From: Acidicapsa dinghuensis
GTDB taxonomy: Bacteria > Acidobacteriota > Terriglobia > Terriglobales > Acidobacteriaceae
Assembly: GCF_025685685.1 (NCBI RefSeq)
Contig: NZ_JAGSYH010000003.1
Location: 248,001 to 312,000, forward strand
Direction of reading: 5' to 3'
Length of the DNA: 64,000 bases
The position numbers were made by a program, and so were the translations under genes. Of this stretch, positions 26,869 through 57,162 are shown one piece after another (position 1 is the stretch's first letter; each line of letters opens with the position of its first letter). The notes beneath the pieces are model-generated. The model was not told the DNA's origin. It saw only the letters and a list, made by a program, of their open reading frames with translations, and did no database searches.

Positions 26869-27801
26869 TCAGTGACCGTGCTCTTCGAGATACTTCTCTG
26901 CCTCAAGAGCAGCCATGCAGCCGGTGCCAGCGGCGGTGATGGCCTGGCGGTAGCGGCGGTCCTGCACGTCTCCGCAGGCAAAGATGCCGGGAACGCGGGT
27001 CATGACATTGTCTTTGGTGACGATGTAGCCCTCGTCGTCGAGATCGATCTGGCCATGGAACATCTTGGCATTGGGTTCGTGGCCGATGCCGAGGAAGAAT
27101 CCGGTGACGGGAAGGACCGACTTCTCGTTGGTCTTGATGTTGCGGATGTGCAGGCCGCGGACGGACTTCTCTTCGACGCCGAGCACTTCGTCAACGACGG
27201 TATTGGTGACAATCTCGATCTTGGGATGAGCGATGACGCGCTCAAGCATTACCTTGGAGGCGCGGAAGCTTTCGCGACGATGGATGAGATAGACCTTGGT
27301 GGCGAAGCGAGTGAGGAATAGCGCTTCCTCCATGGCGGTGTCGCCGCCGCCGACTACGGCAATGTCGTGACCTGAGAAGAAGAATCCATCGCAGGTGGCG
27401 CAGCTTGAGACGCCATGGCCGATCAGGGCCTGTTCACTAGGCAGACCGAGCCAGCGCGCGCTGGCGCCTGAGGCAATGATGAGCGTCCGGGTGTGAATCT
27501 CGCCCTGAGAGGTCTTGAGCTTGAAGGGATGCGACTTGAGGTCGACGGAAACCAGGTGGCTCAGCTTGAATTCAGCACCGAAGCGCGCAGCCTGTTTCTT
27601 CATGTTTTCAATGAGTTCCGGCCCCTGGATGCCCTCTGGCCAACCGGGAAAGTTCTCAACCAGCGTGGTGATGGAGAGCTGGCCGCCGGGCTCGTGGCCC
27701 TCAAGAACAAGGGGTTTCAGGTTGGCGCGTGCGGTGTAGATAGCAGCGGTGAGGCCGGCGCAGCCGGAGCCGAGAATAACTGTGTCGCGAATCTCTTCCA
27801 T
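26869..27801 (-). CDS. trxB: Thioredoxin-disulfide reductase
   Basis: FAD enzyme that passes electrons from NADPH to thioredoxin. 310 residues with FAD-binding GSGCAGLTAAIYTARA at the N-terminus, the redox pair in CATCDGFFF (Cys134, Cys137), the NADPH-binding GGGDTAMEEALFLTRFA, and the C-terminal FAD motif GIFACGDVQDRRYRQAITAAGTG. All match the classical low-molecular-weight class. Contrast with the fused reductase at 53897-55564, which lacks the CxxC. AAGG precedes ATG 27801. First gene of the trxB-yggS-yggU operon, divergent from a small unknown gene. Confidence 0.97.
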   Translation of the reverse strand: MEEIRDTVILGSGCAGLTAAIYTARANLKPLVLEGHEPGGQLSITTLVENFPGWPEGIQGPELIENMKKQAARFGAEFKLSHLVSVDLKSHPFKLKTSQGEIHTRTLIIASGASARWLGLPSEQALIGHGVSSCATCDGFFFSGHDIAVVGGGDTAMEEALFLTRFATKVYLIHRRESFRASKVMLERVIAHPKIEIVTNTVVDEVLGVEEKSVRGLHIRNIKTNEKSVLPVTGFFLGIGHEPNAKMFHGQIDLDDEGYIVTKDNVMTRVPGIFACGDVQDRRYRQAITAAGTGCMAALEAEKYLEEHGH

Positions 27802-52707: not shown

Positions 52708-53427
52708 TTATGTGCCCGTACGAGTGATGCTTTGGACCTTTGAGGATCTGCCACCGCCAGCGGATCCAGCGCTTTCCTCCGCTTCGATGCGGCTGCCTAC
52801 ATCGGCTGCCGCCTCGGCCAGCACGCGATGATGCAGGGTGAAGAGCGCCAGCTCCAGGCGATCGCTTACTCCTGTTTTGTCATAGATGGAGCGCAGGTAG
52901 TTCTTGATGACCTGCTCGGTGGTCTTGAGGCGATTTGCAATCTCGCGATTCTTGCACCCCTGCACGATGAGCGCGACAATGCGCATCTCTTTGGGCGTAA
53001 GACGGTCGCGCACGCGGATGCCGACGAGATCCTGCTCGGGAGCGTCAGTTACGCGTGTATGCACCGGCAGCCATGTTTCGCCGGCGCAAACCTTGCGAAC
53101 ACACTCGACCAACGCAGCGCCGGTAGAGTTGCGCTGGATAACGCCGCGGAAACCAAGCTGCATGTAGCTCGTGGGAATCTCGGAATTTTCGGCAATGACA
53201 ATGCCTCGGCTGTTCACCGATTCCAGTAGAGGTCTGAGGCGGGAATAGTCGGCTCTCAGTGCCGAAGCGAAAATGACGATGGCATGCGGAAAAGTCGTGA
53301 TGGCATGCATCATGCGTTCCGCGTCAGAACACTGCGCAATGATGCGAAAATCGTCGTCCGCGGCAAGCACTTTGGCTGTGCCGGCGCGAAAAATGGCCTG
53401 GGAGTCCGCGAGTATGATCTTGTTCAT
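52708..53427 (-). CDS. LuxR/NarL-type regulator with a degenerate (pseudo-)receiver
   Basis: 239-residue DNA-binding protein with an N-terminal receiver-like domain (about 1-120) and a C-terminal LuxR helix-turn-helix (about 140-205: DRLTPKEMRIVALIVQGCKNREIANRL, TTEQVIKNYLRSIYDKTGVSDRLELAL). The receiver lacks the phosphoacceptor Asp: the strand HAIVIFASAL has Phe53/Ala54 at that place. The acidic pair near the start is reduced to Asp8-Ser9 (ILADSQ), and the conserved Lys is Arg99 (GVIQRNS). Phosphorylation-dependent activation is thus unlikely. C-terminal tail is Ser/Gly-rich. ATG 53427. Only six bases separate it from the convergent ADOP stop. Confidence 0.9.
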   Translation of the reverse strand: MNKIILADSQAIFRAGTAKVLAADDDFRIIAQCSDAERMMHAITTFPHAIVIFASALRADYSRLRPLLESVNSRGIVIAENSEIPTSYMQLGFRGVIQRNSTGAALVECVRKVCAGETWLPVHTRVTDAPEQDLVGIRVRDRLTPKEMRIVALIVQGCKNREIANRLKTTEQVIKNYLRSIYDKTGVSDRLELALFTLHHRVLAEAAADVGSRIEAEESAGSAGGGRSSKVQSITRTGT

Positions 53428-53656: not shown

Positions 53657-53896
53657 TATATCGGCGGTAGGCGTAACAACTTTGCATTTGTTTTAATCTG
53701 CGACATCCAGGGACTAGATATGTCTCTTTGGTAAGCGCTTTTCCTATCCTGCGCCCATTTTCGTAACCTTACCAGCCGCCTTTAGAGTACGGCACGTTGC
53801 TGGATTTGCCAACCATAGGATTTCCAGAATGTTGCGCCAGACCTCGACAAGCTGGGGTTGCCTCAGCCGCGCTACCATCTAAACTGGATTTCAGAT

Positions 53897-55564
53897 ATGA
53901 ACAGGCCCATCCTTCTCGCGGTAGACGACGACATCAATGTGTTGGAAGCGGTGGTCCAGGATCTGCGCCGGCAGTATGGATCGACGTACAGAGTTGTGCG
54001 CGCGGCCAGCGGTCAAGCGGCGCTGGATACCCTGCAACAGTTAAAGGCTCGTGAAGAGGCCGTAGCCCTGCTTTTGAGCGATCAGCGCATGCCGGGCATG
54101 AGCGGTGTCGAGTTTCTGGAAAAGGCACGGAGTTTTTATCCGCACGCAAAGCGCGTCCTGTTGACGGCGTATGCGGACACCGAAGCGGCCATCCAGGCGA
54201 TCAACACAGCCCGCATTCACTATTACCTGACCAAGCCGTGGGATCCGCCGGAAGAGAAGCTGTACCCGGTGCTGGATGACCTGCTGCAGGACTGGAACGC
54301 CGGGTATCAGCCTAAATTCGACGGTATTCGTGTGATTGGACACCGGTGGTCGCTTAAGGATCACCAACTGCGGAGTTTCCTTTCGCGCAATCATGTGCCT
54401 TATCGCTGGCTGGATGCTGCCGCTAGCGACGATGCCCAGCAGCTGCTAAAAGAGCGTTCGCTTGACCCGGAAGCGCTTCCGGTAGTGTTGTTTGCGGATG
54501 GCAGCGCGCTTGTCGATCCGGAGCAGGAGGTGCTGGCGGCGCGCGTCGGCCTGCGGACGCAGCCTGCCCAGGACTTCTATGACATGGTGGTGGTTGGCGC
54601 CGGTCCGGCGGGCTTAGCTGCAGCCGTATATGGAGCGTCCGAGGGGTTGAAGACACTTGTAATCGAGCCGGATGCGCCGGGCGGACAGGCTGGATCTTCT
54701 TCAAAAATAGAGAATTATCTTGGATTCCCTGCAGGAATCACCGGTGCCGACCTGGGCCGGCGTGCGCATATGCAGTGCGTGCGGTTCGGAGCAGAGTTCC
54801 TGACGCAGCGAGCGATGAGCGTTCGGGCCGACGGGCAATACCGGTTTGTTTCGCTGGCAGATGGACGTGAGGTTTCGAGCCACGTTGTGCTGCTGGCTAC
54901 CGGGGTGCAATACCGAAAACTCGAAATTCCGGGTTGCTTAGACCTGACCGGGCGCGGCGTTTATTACGGAGCCGCGCTGGTGGAGGCCGCCGCCTGCAAG
55001 GATGAAGAGGTCTTCATTGTCGGCGGAGCGAATTCCGCCGGCCAGGCAGCCCTGCACTTCGCAAAGTTTGCCCAAAAGGTGACGATGCTGGTGCGTGGGA
55101 GCAGTCTTGAAGCGAGCATGTCGAAATATTTGATCGACGAAATCGAGAAGACCCCGAATATAGTGGTGGAACCAAACACCCAGGTGATAGAAGCACTGGG
55201 CAATGAGCATCTAGAGGCTTTGAAGGTTCGCGGACCGGAAGGGGAAAGTTGCCGTCCGGCTGGATCGCTTTTCGTATTTATCGGGGCTGCTCCAGGTACG
55301 GAATGGTTGCCGGATTCGATTTTGCGCGACGATAAAGGCTTTGTTTACTCAGGGATGGACCTAAGCACTGCCGATCCGAAGACGTCCGCGAAGTTCAAGG
55401 TTCAGTGGAAGCAGGAACGGCCTCCGTTTTTGCTGGAGTCCAGCGTTCCAGGAGTTTTTGTGGCGGGGGACGTGCGCCACGGTTCGATCAAACGAGCGGC
55501 TTCGGCGGTAGGTGAAGGCTCGATTGCAGTACAGTTTGCACATCAGTATTTGGCGAGTTTTTGA
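53897..55564 (+). CDS. Response regulator fused to glutaredoxin-like and thioredoxin-reductase-like FAD domains
   Basis: 555-residue protein with three parts. Receiver domain (about 1-125) with acidic pair VDDDINVLEAV, phosphoacceptor Asp in LLLSDQRMPGMSGVEF, and Lys in YLTKPWD, all intact. A thioredoxin/glutaredoxin-like domain (about 145-235: LRSFLSRNHVPYRWLDAAA, LPVVLFADGSALVDP) without a CxxC. A TrxR-like reductase (about 240-555) with FAD-binding VVVGAGPAGLAAAVYGA, NAD(P)H-binding VGGANSAGQAALHFAKFA, and GVFVAGDVRHGSIKRAASAVGEGS. The redox CxxC of TrxR is absent: the segment after GRGV reads YYGAALVEAAACKDEE. It is thus a phosphorylation-controlled flavin reductase rather than a classical TrxR. 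ATG 53897 begins the receiver; ATG 53858 is an alternative. First gene of a probable pair with the kinase. Confidence 0.93.
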   Translation: MNRPILLAVDDDINVLEAVVQDLRRQYGSTYRVVRAASGQAALDTLQQLKAREEAVALLLSDQRMPGMSGVEFLEKARSFYPHAKRVLLTAYADTEAAIQAINTARIHYYLTKPWDPPEEKLYPVLDDLLQDWNAGYQPKFDGIRVIGHRWSLKDHQLRSFLSRNHVPYRWLDAAASDDAQQLLKERSLDPEALPVVLFADGSALVDPEQEVLAARVGLRTQPAQDFYDMVVVGAGPAGLAAAVYGASEGLKTLVIEPDAPGGQAGSSSKIENYLGFPAGITGADLGRRAHMQCVRFGAEFLTQRAMSVRADGQYRFVSLADGREVSSHVVLLATGVQYRKLEIPGCLDLTGRGVYYGAALVEAAACKDEEVFIVGGANSAGQAALHFAKFAQKVTMLVRGSSLEASMSKYLIDEIEKTPNIVVEPNTQVIEALGNEHLEALKVRGPEGESCRPAGSLFVFIGAAPGTEWLPDSILRDDKGFVYSGMDLSTADPKTSAKFKVQWKQERPPFLLESSVPGVFVAGDVRHGSIKRAASAVGEGSIAVQFAHQYLASF

Positions 55565-55676
55565 GGTTAAACGGGTGCGGGAAGAGGCTAACGGGCAAAT
55601 CTCAACGAAAGTGGAATGGAAGAAACGCATCTTCCTGGCTCACGCTACATCCATAGCTAATGGAAATGTACGAGTA

Positions 55677-55696
55677 GCGGCAGCAGAAGCTGCGGC
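55677..55696 (+). promoter_or_regulatory. Imperfect hairpin just before kinase gene
   Basis: GCGGCAGC-AGAA-GCTGCGGC, seven of eight pairs, tetraloop AGAA, 14 bases before the kinase ATG, which lacks a Shine-Dalgarno. Could affect translation or stabilise the transcript. Confidence 0.35.
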
Positions 55697-55710
55697 ATAA
55701 ACAAAAAACG

Positions 55711-57162
55711 ATGGATACCGAAAACCAAATCACTACCGAGCGGGTCTCGCTGGACGATTACGCGGAACGGCTCACAGAAGCCTTCCCTGGCACCGGCGTT
55801 AAGCCGGAACAGCTTTGCGGCCTTGGAGATGCGGACCTGCTTCGCGTACCGGCCAATGTAACTTTTTACGACTCAACTGCCGGTAATGCACCAATGCGCG
55901 CTCTTTGGGTTTTGCTTGAGGGCGAAGCGGTAGCTGACAAGGTGGAAGCGGACGGCTCGCAGATGCGTGCCTATGCTGGCAAGGCTCCGGAATCCTTCGG
56001 TGAAGTCTTCCTGTTGGCGGGCAAAGCTCCGCCAATGCTCGCCAAGGCCGTGCAGCCTTCCGTAATTTTGCGTATCGATGAGTCAAGCTTCTGGAACCTG
56101 ATGGCTTGCTGTGAGCCGATCCGTAAAAAAGTACTCATAAATATGTCGGCTCGGCTGAAGGTTCTGCAAGCGGAAGCCGCGCATAGGGAAAAGCTGGTCT
56201 CTTTAGGAACGCTGGCTGCCGGACTCATGCATGAGCTGCACAATCCTGGATCGGCGGCAAAACGCGCCGCTTCCCAGCTGCGTGTAAACCTGACCCGGCT
56301 ACAGGAACTTAGCCTGCGACAAGCTTCGAAGCCAAAGACTCCGCTGCAACTCGAGTGCATGCATGACCTGCTAGCGCATGCTATGCATAGCTGCAAGGCT
56401 CCGGCGATGAGCAGTCTGGATCAGGCCGACGCCGAAGAGGCAATGTCGGAATGGCTTGATTCGTCGGGCGTGGAAAATGCTTACAAGATCGGCCCCGCGC
56501 TGGTCGCTATCGGCTTTGAGAAAGAAGAGCTGGAATGCGCCCGAACCGCCTTTGAGAACGGCTCTCTGTCAGACGCACTCAACTGGCTGGAAGCTCTGGT
56601 ATCGAGCATATCGTTAGTCTGCGCCATCGAGGAAAGCGTTTCCCGGGTTTCTGACCTGGTGATGGCAGTAAAGAAGTTTGCGTACGACGACCGCTGCACT
56701 TTACGAGACGTCGATGTGCATGACAGCATCCAGAGCACTCTGACGATTCTTGGGCATAAGATGCGGCAGAGACAGATCACCGTGCAGAAGCACTTCGATG
56801 CGGCACAGCCGAACATCCGGACGACTGGGGTTGCAATCAGCCAAGTCTGGACGAACCTGCTCGACAACGCCATCGATGCTTCGCCCGAAGGCGGCCAGAT
56901 CGATGTCAAGACATGGTCCGAACCGGACTATCTCGCAATTGCCATCGTCGATCACGGATCGGGTATTCCGGAGGAGATCCGCGAAAAGATCTTCGAGCCG
57001 TTCTTCACAACCAAGCCGGTGGGCAAGGGCACGGGACTTGGTCTCGAGATTGTGCAGCGCATCGTGACGCAGAGTTTTGGCGGAAAGATTCAGATCGATT
57101 CGAAGCCCGGCGAGACGAAGTTTATCGTGCGTCTGCCGCAAGCCGCAGGGCTGCCGGCCTGA
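55711..57162 (+). CDS. Soluble sensor histidine kinase with CRP-like N-terminal domain
   Basis: 483-residue cytoplasmic kinase with no membrane segment. Residues about 40-140 form a cyclic-nucleotide-binding-like barrel ([51 protein letters not shown]). The phosphate-binding cassette lacks the Arg-Ser-Ala of cAMP binders, so the ligand may differ. HisKA begins at [30 protein letters not shown] with phosphoacceptor His174, followed by a long insertion of about 150 residues (residues 190-340) and HATPase_c ([34 protein letters not shown]). The gap of 146 bases after the receiver-reductase gene on the same strand makes it the likely kinase partner. No ribosome-binding site is evident. Confidence 0.92.

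Follow-up and report, generated by a model that had tools for sequence, protein, structure and literature searches.

A window of 64,000 nucleotides from Acidicapsa dinghuensis (contig NZ_JAGSYH010000003.1, positions 248,001 to 312,000) carries two neighboring genes that form a two-component pair, one that recurs widely among bacteria and whose output is a thioredoxin reductase (TrxR)-like flavoprotein devoid of redox dithiols. The first gene, at positions 53897 to 55564 of the window on the (+) strand, encodes a 555-residue protein (P0001) in which Pfam matches, conservation and a structure model distinguish a receiver, a glutaredoxin (Grx)-like domain and a TrxR-like domain. The second, at 55711 to 57162 on the same strand, encodes a 483-residue histidine kinase with a CRP-like N-terminus. 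Both genes had been placed correctly, from ATG to stop codon, in an earlier interpretation made from the letters of the DNA (hereafter, the sequence-only reading); a TTG exists upstream of the reductase start, at 53858, and the methionine encoded by the ATG at 53897 is invariant in 9 aligned homologues. Judging from conserved residues, the flavoprotein is likely controlled by phosphorylation and still able to accept electrons from reduced nicotinamide adenine dinucleotide (phosphate), NAD(P)H. It is plausible that a small ubiquitin-type zinc-finger protein of the zf-UBP family (PF02148) is the partner of this flavoprotein, and that membrane ion transport is the end point is speculative.

Conservation of the gene pair across bacteria

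A full-length receiver-flavoprotein was present in 14 of the 15 genomes examined from the window's genus, its own included, and was absent from one (G001). The kinase lay beside the reductase at all 16 loci of the genus and family and at all 29 of the other receiver-type (Rec-type) hits in the phylum that were fetched and checked for a kinase, i.e., at 45 of 45 acidobacterial loci together. Among 80 named loci spanning Acidobacteria, Cyanobacteria, Actinobacteria, Chloroflexi, Bacteroidetes, Verrucomicrobia, Proteobacteria and others, 67 had the kinase in the fetched flanks and 59 had it within 300 bp, mostly upstream of the reductase in Bacteroidetes and mostly downstream elsewhere. Annotated plasmid records from Deinococcus, Caballeronia and Streptomyces show a 4-bp overlap between the reductase and kinase coding regions; in Streptomyces fungicidicus, the kinase gene is in turn overlapped by a gene for a UBP-type zinc finger. 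The sequence-only reading had proposed checking whether the two genes are conserved as neighbors, and we found that the pairing is kept across many phyla and in either gene order.

Chance pairing was dropped as an explanation in view of these counts (16 of 16, 29 of 29 and 67 of 80 loci with a kinase). A related explanation is that the two genes are neighbors without a functional link, or an assembly artifact, and it can draw on the 13 of 80 named loci, nine of them cyanobacterial, whose fetched flanks contained no kinase; for two of these loci, the contig ends 175 bp past the gene. We consider it extremely improbable, since the pairing recurs across many phyla, in both orders and with overlapping genes in places, and the counts of 16 of 16 and 67 of 80 contradict it. 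No recurrent substitute for the kinase was seen in the 12 kinase-less loci that were read by eye (all but L051). Likewise, clustering of the neighboring genes revealed, among the 28 largest clusters, no recurrent family assignable to the pathway other than the kinase, zf-UBP and the reductase; many clusters were frame shadows.

Domains and conserved residues of the receiver-flavoprotein

Pfam assigned residues 7 to 118 of P0001 to Response_reg and residues 228 to 541 to Pyr_redox_2. The receiver as a whole covers residues 1 to 136 (positions 53897 to 54304), its end being taken from a helix in the structure model. Conservation was counted over 125 of 127 sequences, two of the sister form described below being left out. 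Residues D10, D11, D62 and T90 were kept in 124 of the 125 homologues, the remaining one having a gap, and K113 in all 125, so the acidic pair, Asp, Thr and Lys of the phosphorylation site that had been called intact are indeed all conserved; the predicted phospho-acceptor, Asp62, is encoded at 54080 to 54082. The output had been described as a Grx-like domain followed by a TrxR-like reductase, and this architecture holds, with the Grx-like part (residues ~140 to 217; positions 54314 to 54547) recognized from conservation, the model and a sub-threshold Pfam Glutaredoxin match (residues 157 to 198, E = 0.078, 13.6 of the 22.9 bits of the cut-off).

Both dithiols are missing. The positions read as the Grx cysteines (152 and 155) are S and D in P0001, leaving neither CxxC nor CxxS in this domain, in agreement with what had been claimed for it. 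Across the 125 homologues the combinations SS (58) and SD (43) dominate, and 4 sequences have a Cys at the second position; P195, which by eye occupies the cis-Pro position, is invariant. In the TrxR-like part (residues 224 to 555, positions 54566 to 55561; identified by Pfam, motifs and a structure search), the CxxC position holds YYGAALVEAAACKDEE, and the alignments place YGAALVEAAAC (residues 357 to 367, positions 54965 to 54997) where TrxR has its CATCD loop, which bears out the reported loss of this CxxC. A redox CxxC elsewhere in the window's protein had been named as a possibility that would overturn this picture. P0001 has four cysteines (294, 347, 367 and 452) and no CxxC, CxC, CxxxC or CC, and the idea of a hidden CxxC is rejected. 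A CxxC does occur at other places in 27 of the 125 homologues, and in 20 of these it is a CHVC before the ATG motif, a feature absent from the window's protein. In acidobacterial sequences and one contig labeled Verrucomicrobia (L116-L119, L121-L129, L131, L133, L134, L136-L140, L039 and L040), a CxxC immediately precedes the ATG motif in the flavin adenine dinucleotide (FAD) domain; it is mostly CHVC, with three CSVC or CRVC.

The loop that replaces CATCD is itself a strong motif, YYGAxxxExxxC, in which Y357, G358 and E363 are present in 125 of 125 homologues and C367 in 118. In an alignment to one CATC-containing TrxR, E363 falls on the Asp after the second Cys, which we take to be the acid catalyst of TrxR, and C367 falls on a Tyr four residues past the Asp of CATCD. 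The other three cysteines of P0001 are not conserved. Where C367 is replaced in Rec-type proteins, it is by Tyr (5), Ala (1) or Val (1), and these proteins keep E363 and Y357.

The FAD motifs GxGxxG, GGQ and IENYLGF vary little or not at all among the 125 homologues, and GGxNSAGQ, the NAD(P)H motif, is preserved. From HRRxxxR, whose basic residues presumably grip the 2'-phosphate in TrxR, only the first Arg is retained (R400, 125 of 125). The sequence-only reading was right that the FAD and NAD(P)H sites remain, insofar as their motifs are kept; the 2'-phosphate residues are mostly lost, and a preference for NADH or NADPH cannot be read off the sequence.

A structure model in the flavin-reducing conformation

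The AlphaFold2 model of the flavoprotein (pLDDT 88.2, pTM 0.69) fitted the ten best TrxR entries at 2.0 to 2.8 Å, including 5mh4, which is titled as flavin-reducing (FR; 2.5 Å), and 1f6m (2.8 Å), a TrxR-thioredoxin complex that we take to be in the FR state as well, as against 8.4 Å (5mjk) and 6.0 Å (5w4c) for two entries titled FO. The model thus adopts the FR conformation of TrxR, which is the conformation that loss of the dithiols would allow; this state may also reflect an AlphaFold bias. Two TrxR-like ferredoxin-NADP reductases, 3lzw and 6gas, also matched the model (5.2 to 5.6 Å).

These features bear on two alternatives. In the first, which was the interpretation given by the sequence-only reading, the protein would be a phosphorylation-gated flavin reductase or NAD(P)H oxidase, i.e., a diaphorase whose reduced FAD would be oxidized by O2, by quinones, by free flavin or by some small acceptor. 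The retained NAD(P)H and FAD motifs, the modeled FR conformation and the match to 3lzw and 6gas, which presumably lack a CxxC, all speak for such an enzyme. We nevertheless hold it to be somewhat unlikely: the residues for the NADPH 2'-phosphate are mostly lost, no free-flavin or ferredoxin site was identified (none was searched for), and the association with zf-UBP described below would be left unexplained. In the second, the protein would be a non-catalytic redox sensor that responds to the NAD(P)H/NAD(P)+ ratio or to the state of the FAD and, without turnover, alters the lifetime of the receiver or the binding of a partner; the signal may even run from the flavin to the kinase. Retention of the ligand motifs in a protein that has lost both dithiol relays would suit this explanation, but the invariance of E363, Y357 and G541 in 41 of 41 aligned sequences hints at, though it does not prove, selection beyond ligand binding, and we regard a purely sensory role as unlikely.

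The kinase and its CRP-like domain

The claim that a kinase with a CRP-like domain adjoins the reductase was borne out, and no transmembrane segment was evident in an assessment made without a transmembrane predictor. Pfam detected HATPase_c (E = 8e-27; residues 375 to 478, positions 56833 to 57144) and, at 26.2 bits and therefore just below the cut-off of 27.5, cNMP_binding. The latter matched at E ≤ 0.01 in all 33 aligned kinases, the window's included, as judged by E-value rather than by per-member cut-offs; HATPase_c was found in 33 of 33 and HisKA in 20 of 33, the window's kinase not being among them. A broader alignment dropped relatives shorter than 380 residues and kept 113. Every row of the kinase alignments has a His at position 174, the predicted phospho-donor (codon at 56230 to 56232), and N382, N386, D414, G416 and G418 are invariant in the 33 rows. 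Control of the flavoprotein by phosphorylation would fit these residues together with the intact receiver.

Residues 8 to 133 (positions 55732 to 56109) form the CRP-like, cNMP_binding-type domain according to Pfam, the structure model and the alignment, and a structure search with this domain matched those of kinase A and CRP type. The column matched by eye to the phosphate-gripping Arg of kinase A holds an Arg in 0 of 27 kinases. Because this Arg is missing from every row, the ligand of the domain is probably not a cyclic nucleotide. The sequence-only reading is thus supported as regards the two-component pair and the CxxC loss and weakened as regards nucleotide sensing.

In the AlphaFold2 model of the kinase (pLDDT 88.1, pTM 0.67), a helix of residues 135 to 205, which holds H174, and a helix of residues 283 to 328 are separated by four helices (211 to 280), so that the DHp hairpin would carry an insert of ~77 residues (206 to 282; positions 56326 to 56556) with E242, W248 and L274 as conserved columns. 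A fold search with the model lists kinases; the alignment ranges are not shown, and the search is hence silent on the insert. Near a Rec-type reductase of Ktedonobacterales (L062:6313-8034, (−) strand), the same kinase core was seen with an N-terminus that, by eye, is receiver-like and replaces the CRP-like domain.

A sister form that carries the sensor on the reductase

In a sister form of the flavoprotein, a CRP-like domain replaces the receiver on a homologous Grx-like and TrxR-like part that is ~40 to 50% identical. This CNB-type protein, annotated as "cyclic nucleotide-binding domain-containing thioredoxin-disulfide reductase," shares the motif with E363 and mostly C367; it differs from the Rec-type in this domain swap and in lacking such a kinase nearby. 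The window's own genome carries one such paralogue (L002, G000:C13:422575-423756). No kinase was found near the CNB-type gene in 20 loci, with ~4 to 5 kb searched on each side in most. In a tree of 60 proteins, 18 of them CNB-type, a single branch (94/92 support; recovered in 95% of bootstrap trees) sets the Rec-type proteins apart, and the CNB-type proteins are not one group; the single TrxR outgroup is very distant and makes the root unusable. Since the sister form carries the sensor itself and lacks the kinase in the 20 loci, a Rosetta-stone argument can be made that sensor and reductase belong to one pathway, the sensor being part of the reductase in one form and of a kinase in the other.

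The sister form also bears on whether the protein could be a single-cysteine thiol enzyme, in which C367 would form a sulfenic acid or a mixed disulfide, as in the analogous cases of NADH peroxidase and bacillithiol disulfide reductase. C367 is present in 15 of 18 CNB-type proteins as well as in the 118 of 125 Rec-type proteins noted above, and it is the one conserved cysteine among the four of P0001. Yet the remaining three CNB-type proteins have Val in its place and, like the seven Rec-type exceptions, keep E363 and Y357; moreover, being aligned with a TrxR Tyr, C367 may not reach the flavin. In view of these substitutions by Tyr, Ala and Val in both forms, C367 is common but dispensable as judged from the alignments. 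A thiol enzyme dependent on this Cys was dropped as the best reading and appears quite improbable.

Association with zf-UBP proteins

The zf-UBP family was found in 85 of 396 acidobacterial genomes (one of the 85 below the family cut-off). Of the 70 acidobacterial genomes that carry the reductase family (E ≤ 1e-60), 56 have zf-UBP, as do 29 of the 326 that lack it (Fisher p ~4e-33); outside the window's own family the counts are 21 of 34 versus 27 of 318 (Fisher p ~2e-12), both p-values being inflated by the relatedness of genomes within a phylum. The zf-UBP profile used for the named and CNB-type loci was itself derived from 11 sequences found at these loci. It detected zf-UBP in the flanks of 23 of the 80 named Rec-type loci, and by eye the zf-UBP gene adjoins the pair or the reductase in all of them except L081. 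Genome-wide, zf-UBP was found somewhere in 31 of the 49 named genomes searched (49 of the 80 were covered, L048 not among them) versus 2 of 14 control genomes. Among the acidobacterial hits, 7 of 48 receiver-less proteins (defined as matches beginning after residue 118) and 4 of 51 receiver-type proteins had zf-UBP no more than 5 kb away; a count of 6 out of 20 CNB-type loci is biased because these loci were hand-picked after the adjacency had been noticed, and the 7 of 48 is preferred. Such adjacency is far above what chance would give for one or two copies per genome. Burroughs, Iyer and Aravind, in work on prokaryotic treble-clef domains, are said to have possibly noted zf-UBP with redox and kinase genes, for which reason we do not claim the novelty of the association as certain. 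The zf-UBP gene of the window's genome lies downstream of siroheme-synthase-like genes (L206:4820-5101, (−) strand).

Some zf-UBP domains are fused to membrane proteins. Three genes encode Na_H_Exchanger-TrkA_N-zf-UBP fusions, i.e., Kef-like antiporters with a C-terminal zf-UBP (L059:5637-7808, L199:4229-6442 and L204:4082-6496, all on the (−) strand). At L199, the receiver-flavoprotein, the kinase and the antiporter-zf-UBP fusion follow one another on one strand, and at L059 the fusion gene is divergent to the reductase-kinase pair. An LtrA membrane protein with a C-terminal zf-UBP was found twice (L200:4206-5885, (−) strand, and L201:2658-4109, (+) strand). In Deinococcus aetherius (L172), an LtrA gene lies ~2.3 kb from the pair.

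Proposed mechanism and points against it

The explanation that we favor, tentatively and with a little less than even confidence, is that of a cognate pair whose receiver protein is a phosphorylation-switched NAD(P)H flavoprotein with its output through a protein partner, zf-UBP being the best candidate. The CRP-like domain of the kinase would detect a ligand, probably other than a cyclic nucleotide, and the kinase would set the phosphorylation of Asp62. The flavoprotein would bind FAD and NAD(P)H and retain that half of the TrxR reaction in which NAD(P)H reduces the flavin. Because both the TrxR and the Grx dithiol relays are lost, electrons or the redox state of the flavin would have to exit by another route, most likely through contact with a protein partner that depends on redox state and phosphorylation; the small zf-UBP protein is the best candidate for this partner. 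The domains, the conserved residues and the statistics on neighboring and co-occurring genes are direct results of the analysis, from which phosphotransfer, the binding of cofactors, NAD(P)H oxidation, the partner and all of the physiology are inferred. Extending this to a complete module, in which a CRP-like sensor, in the kinase or on the reductase, switches a dithiol-less, FR-state TrxR flavoprotein that acts through zf-UBP on membrane transport, is rather unlikely to be correct as a whole.

Several observations weigh against the favored explanation, in addition to the relatedness behind the co-occurrence statistics, the possible bias of the model and the 13 named loci that lack a kinase. 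The kinase at L062 matches without the CRP-like part. In the window, the two co-directional genes are separated by a gap of 146 bp, which, set against the overlaps found elsewhere, weakens the case for tight coupling in this species. As for the proposed partner, zf-UBP was not seen in 18 of the 49 named genomes that have the reductase and were searched, and no zf-UBP gene lies near the window's pair; the single copy of that genome is on another contig (G000:C10:138316-138516) beside siroheme-synthase-like genes. In the phylum, zf-UBP is near only 11 of 99 hits, a minority, which lowers our confidence in the favored explanation.

Gene neighborhood of the pair in the window

The genes flanking the pair encode a LuxR-type regulator, an acetyltransferase and MotA, with no antiporter among them according to Pfam. 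Neither an internal terminator nor an internal promoter is supported between the reductase and kinase genes: terminator-like hits numbered 4 versus 4.9 expected and promoter-like hits 1 versus 2.5 expected, with none of either in 55565 to 55710. The LuxR-type regulator (52708 to 53427, (−) strand) is divergent to the pair and has a receiver-like N-terminus that, by eye, seems to lack the phospho-acceptor Asp (HAIVIFASALR). Members of its cluster occur in 9 of the 80 loci, eight of them acidobacterial and at the equivalent place; the ninth (L066, Anaerolineae) is elsewhere. An ordinary TrxR with CATC is also encoded in the window (26869 to 27801, (−) strand), ~26 kb from the pair, and the general TrxR function is therefore covered elsewhere.

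Relation to known systems and significance

The flavoprotein resembles TrxB and AhpF in its TrxR fold and its FAD and NAD(P)H motifs, and AhpF also carries thioredoxin-like domains in front. It differs from them in falling below both NCBIfam cut-offs (205.5 of 343.45 bits for TRX_reduct and 139.7 of 502.9 bits for AhpF) and in having no CxxC in either part. With the TrxR-like ferredoxin/flavodoxin-NADP reductases (3lzw and 6gas) the likeness is in fold only, at the larger deviation given above. A further parallel is KefC-KefF, in which a cytosolic flavoprotein of the quinone-reductase fold, not the TrxR fold, partners a cation/proton antiporter: the antiporter-TrkA_N-zf-UBP fusions adjoin the reductase-kinase pair at L059 and L199, whereas the window's pair has no antiporter neighbor.

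Annotated plasmid homologues in public records are labeled "FAD-dependent oxidoreductase." The sequence-only reading had stated that similar fusions are known as a family and that their physiology is little described. Response regulators that fuse REC to thioredoxin reductase, the same architecture, are indeed in print (PMC5847659), the available passages of which do not mention the CxxC loss, a Grx-like domain, a partner kinase or zf-UBP, and the passages of PMC8945050 hold nothing on the reductase family. The literature searched, which reached few subscription papers, yielded no mechanism and no paper on the module, and the papers searched gave no cellular context for the bacterial zf-UBP domain.

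The architecture, then, is already known, and the present analysis adds the view of a module and a residue motif. The Cys/Glu motif, the CNB-type sister form, the zf-UBP association, the DHp insert of the kinase and the breadth of the pairing had no place in the sequence-only reading, which otherwise stands in part. With the swap of the sensor, the double loss of dithiols, the invariant Glu, the near-invariant Cys and the recurrent zf-UBP neighbor taken together, what was an orphan architecture becomes a module for which specific residues and a possible partner can be named. Such a module would give the bacterial zf-UBP domain a cellular context. If the proposed connection to transport is true, it would also couple ion flux to the redox state of NAD(P)H, a role that KefF fills for KefC with different components, given that zf-UBP is fused to Kef-like antiporters, beside the pair in two loci, and to LtrA proteins.

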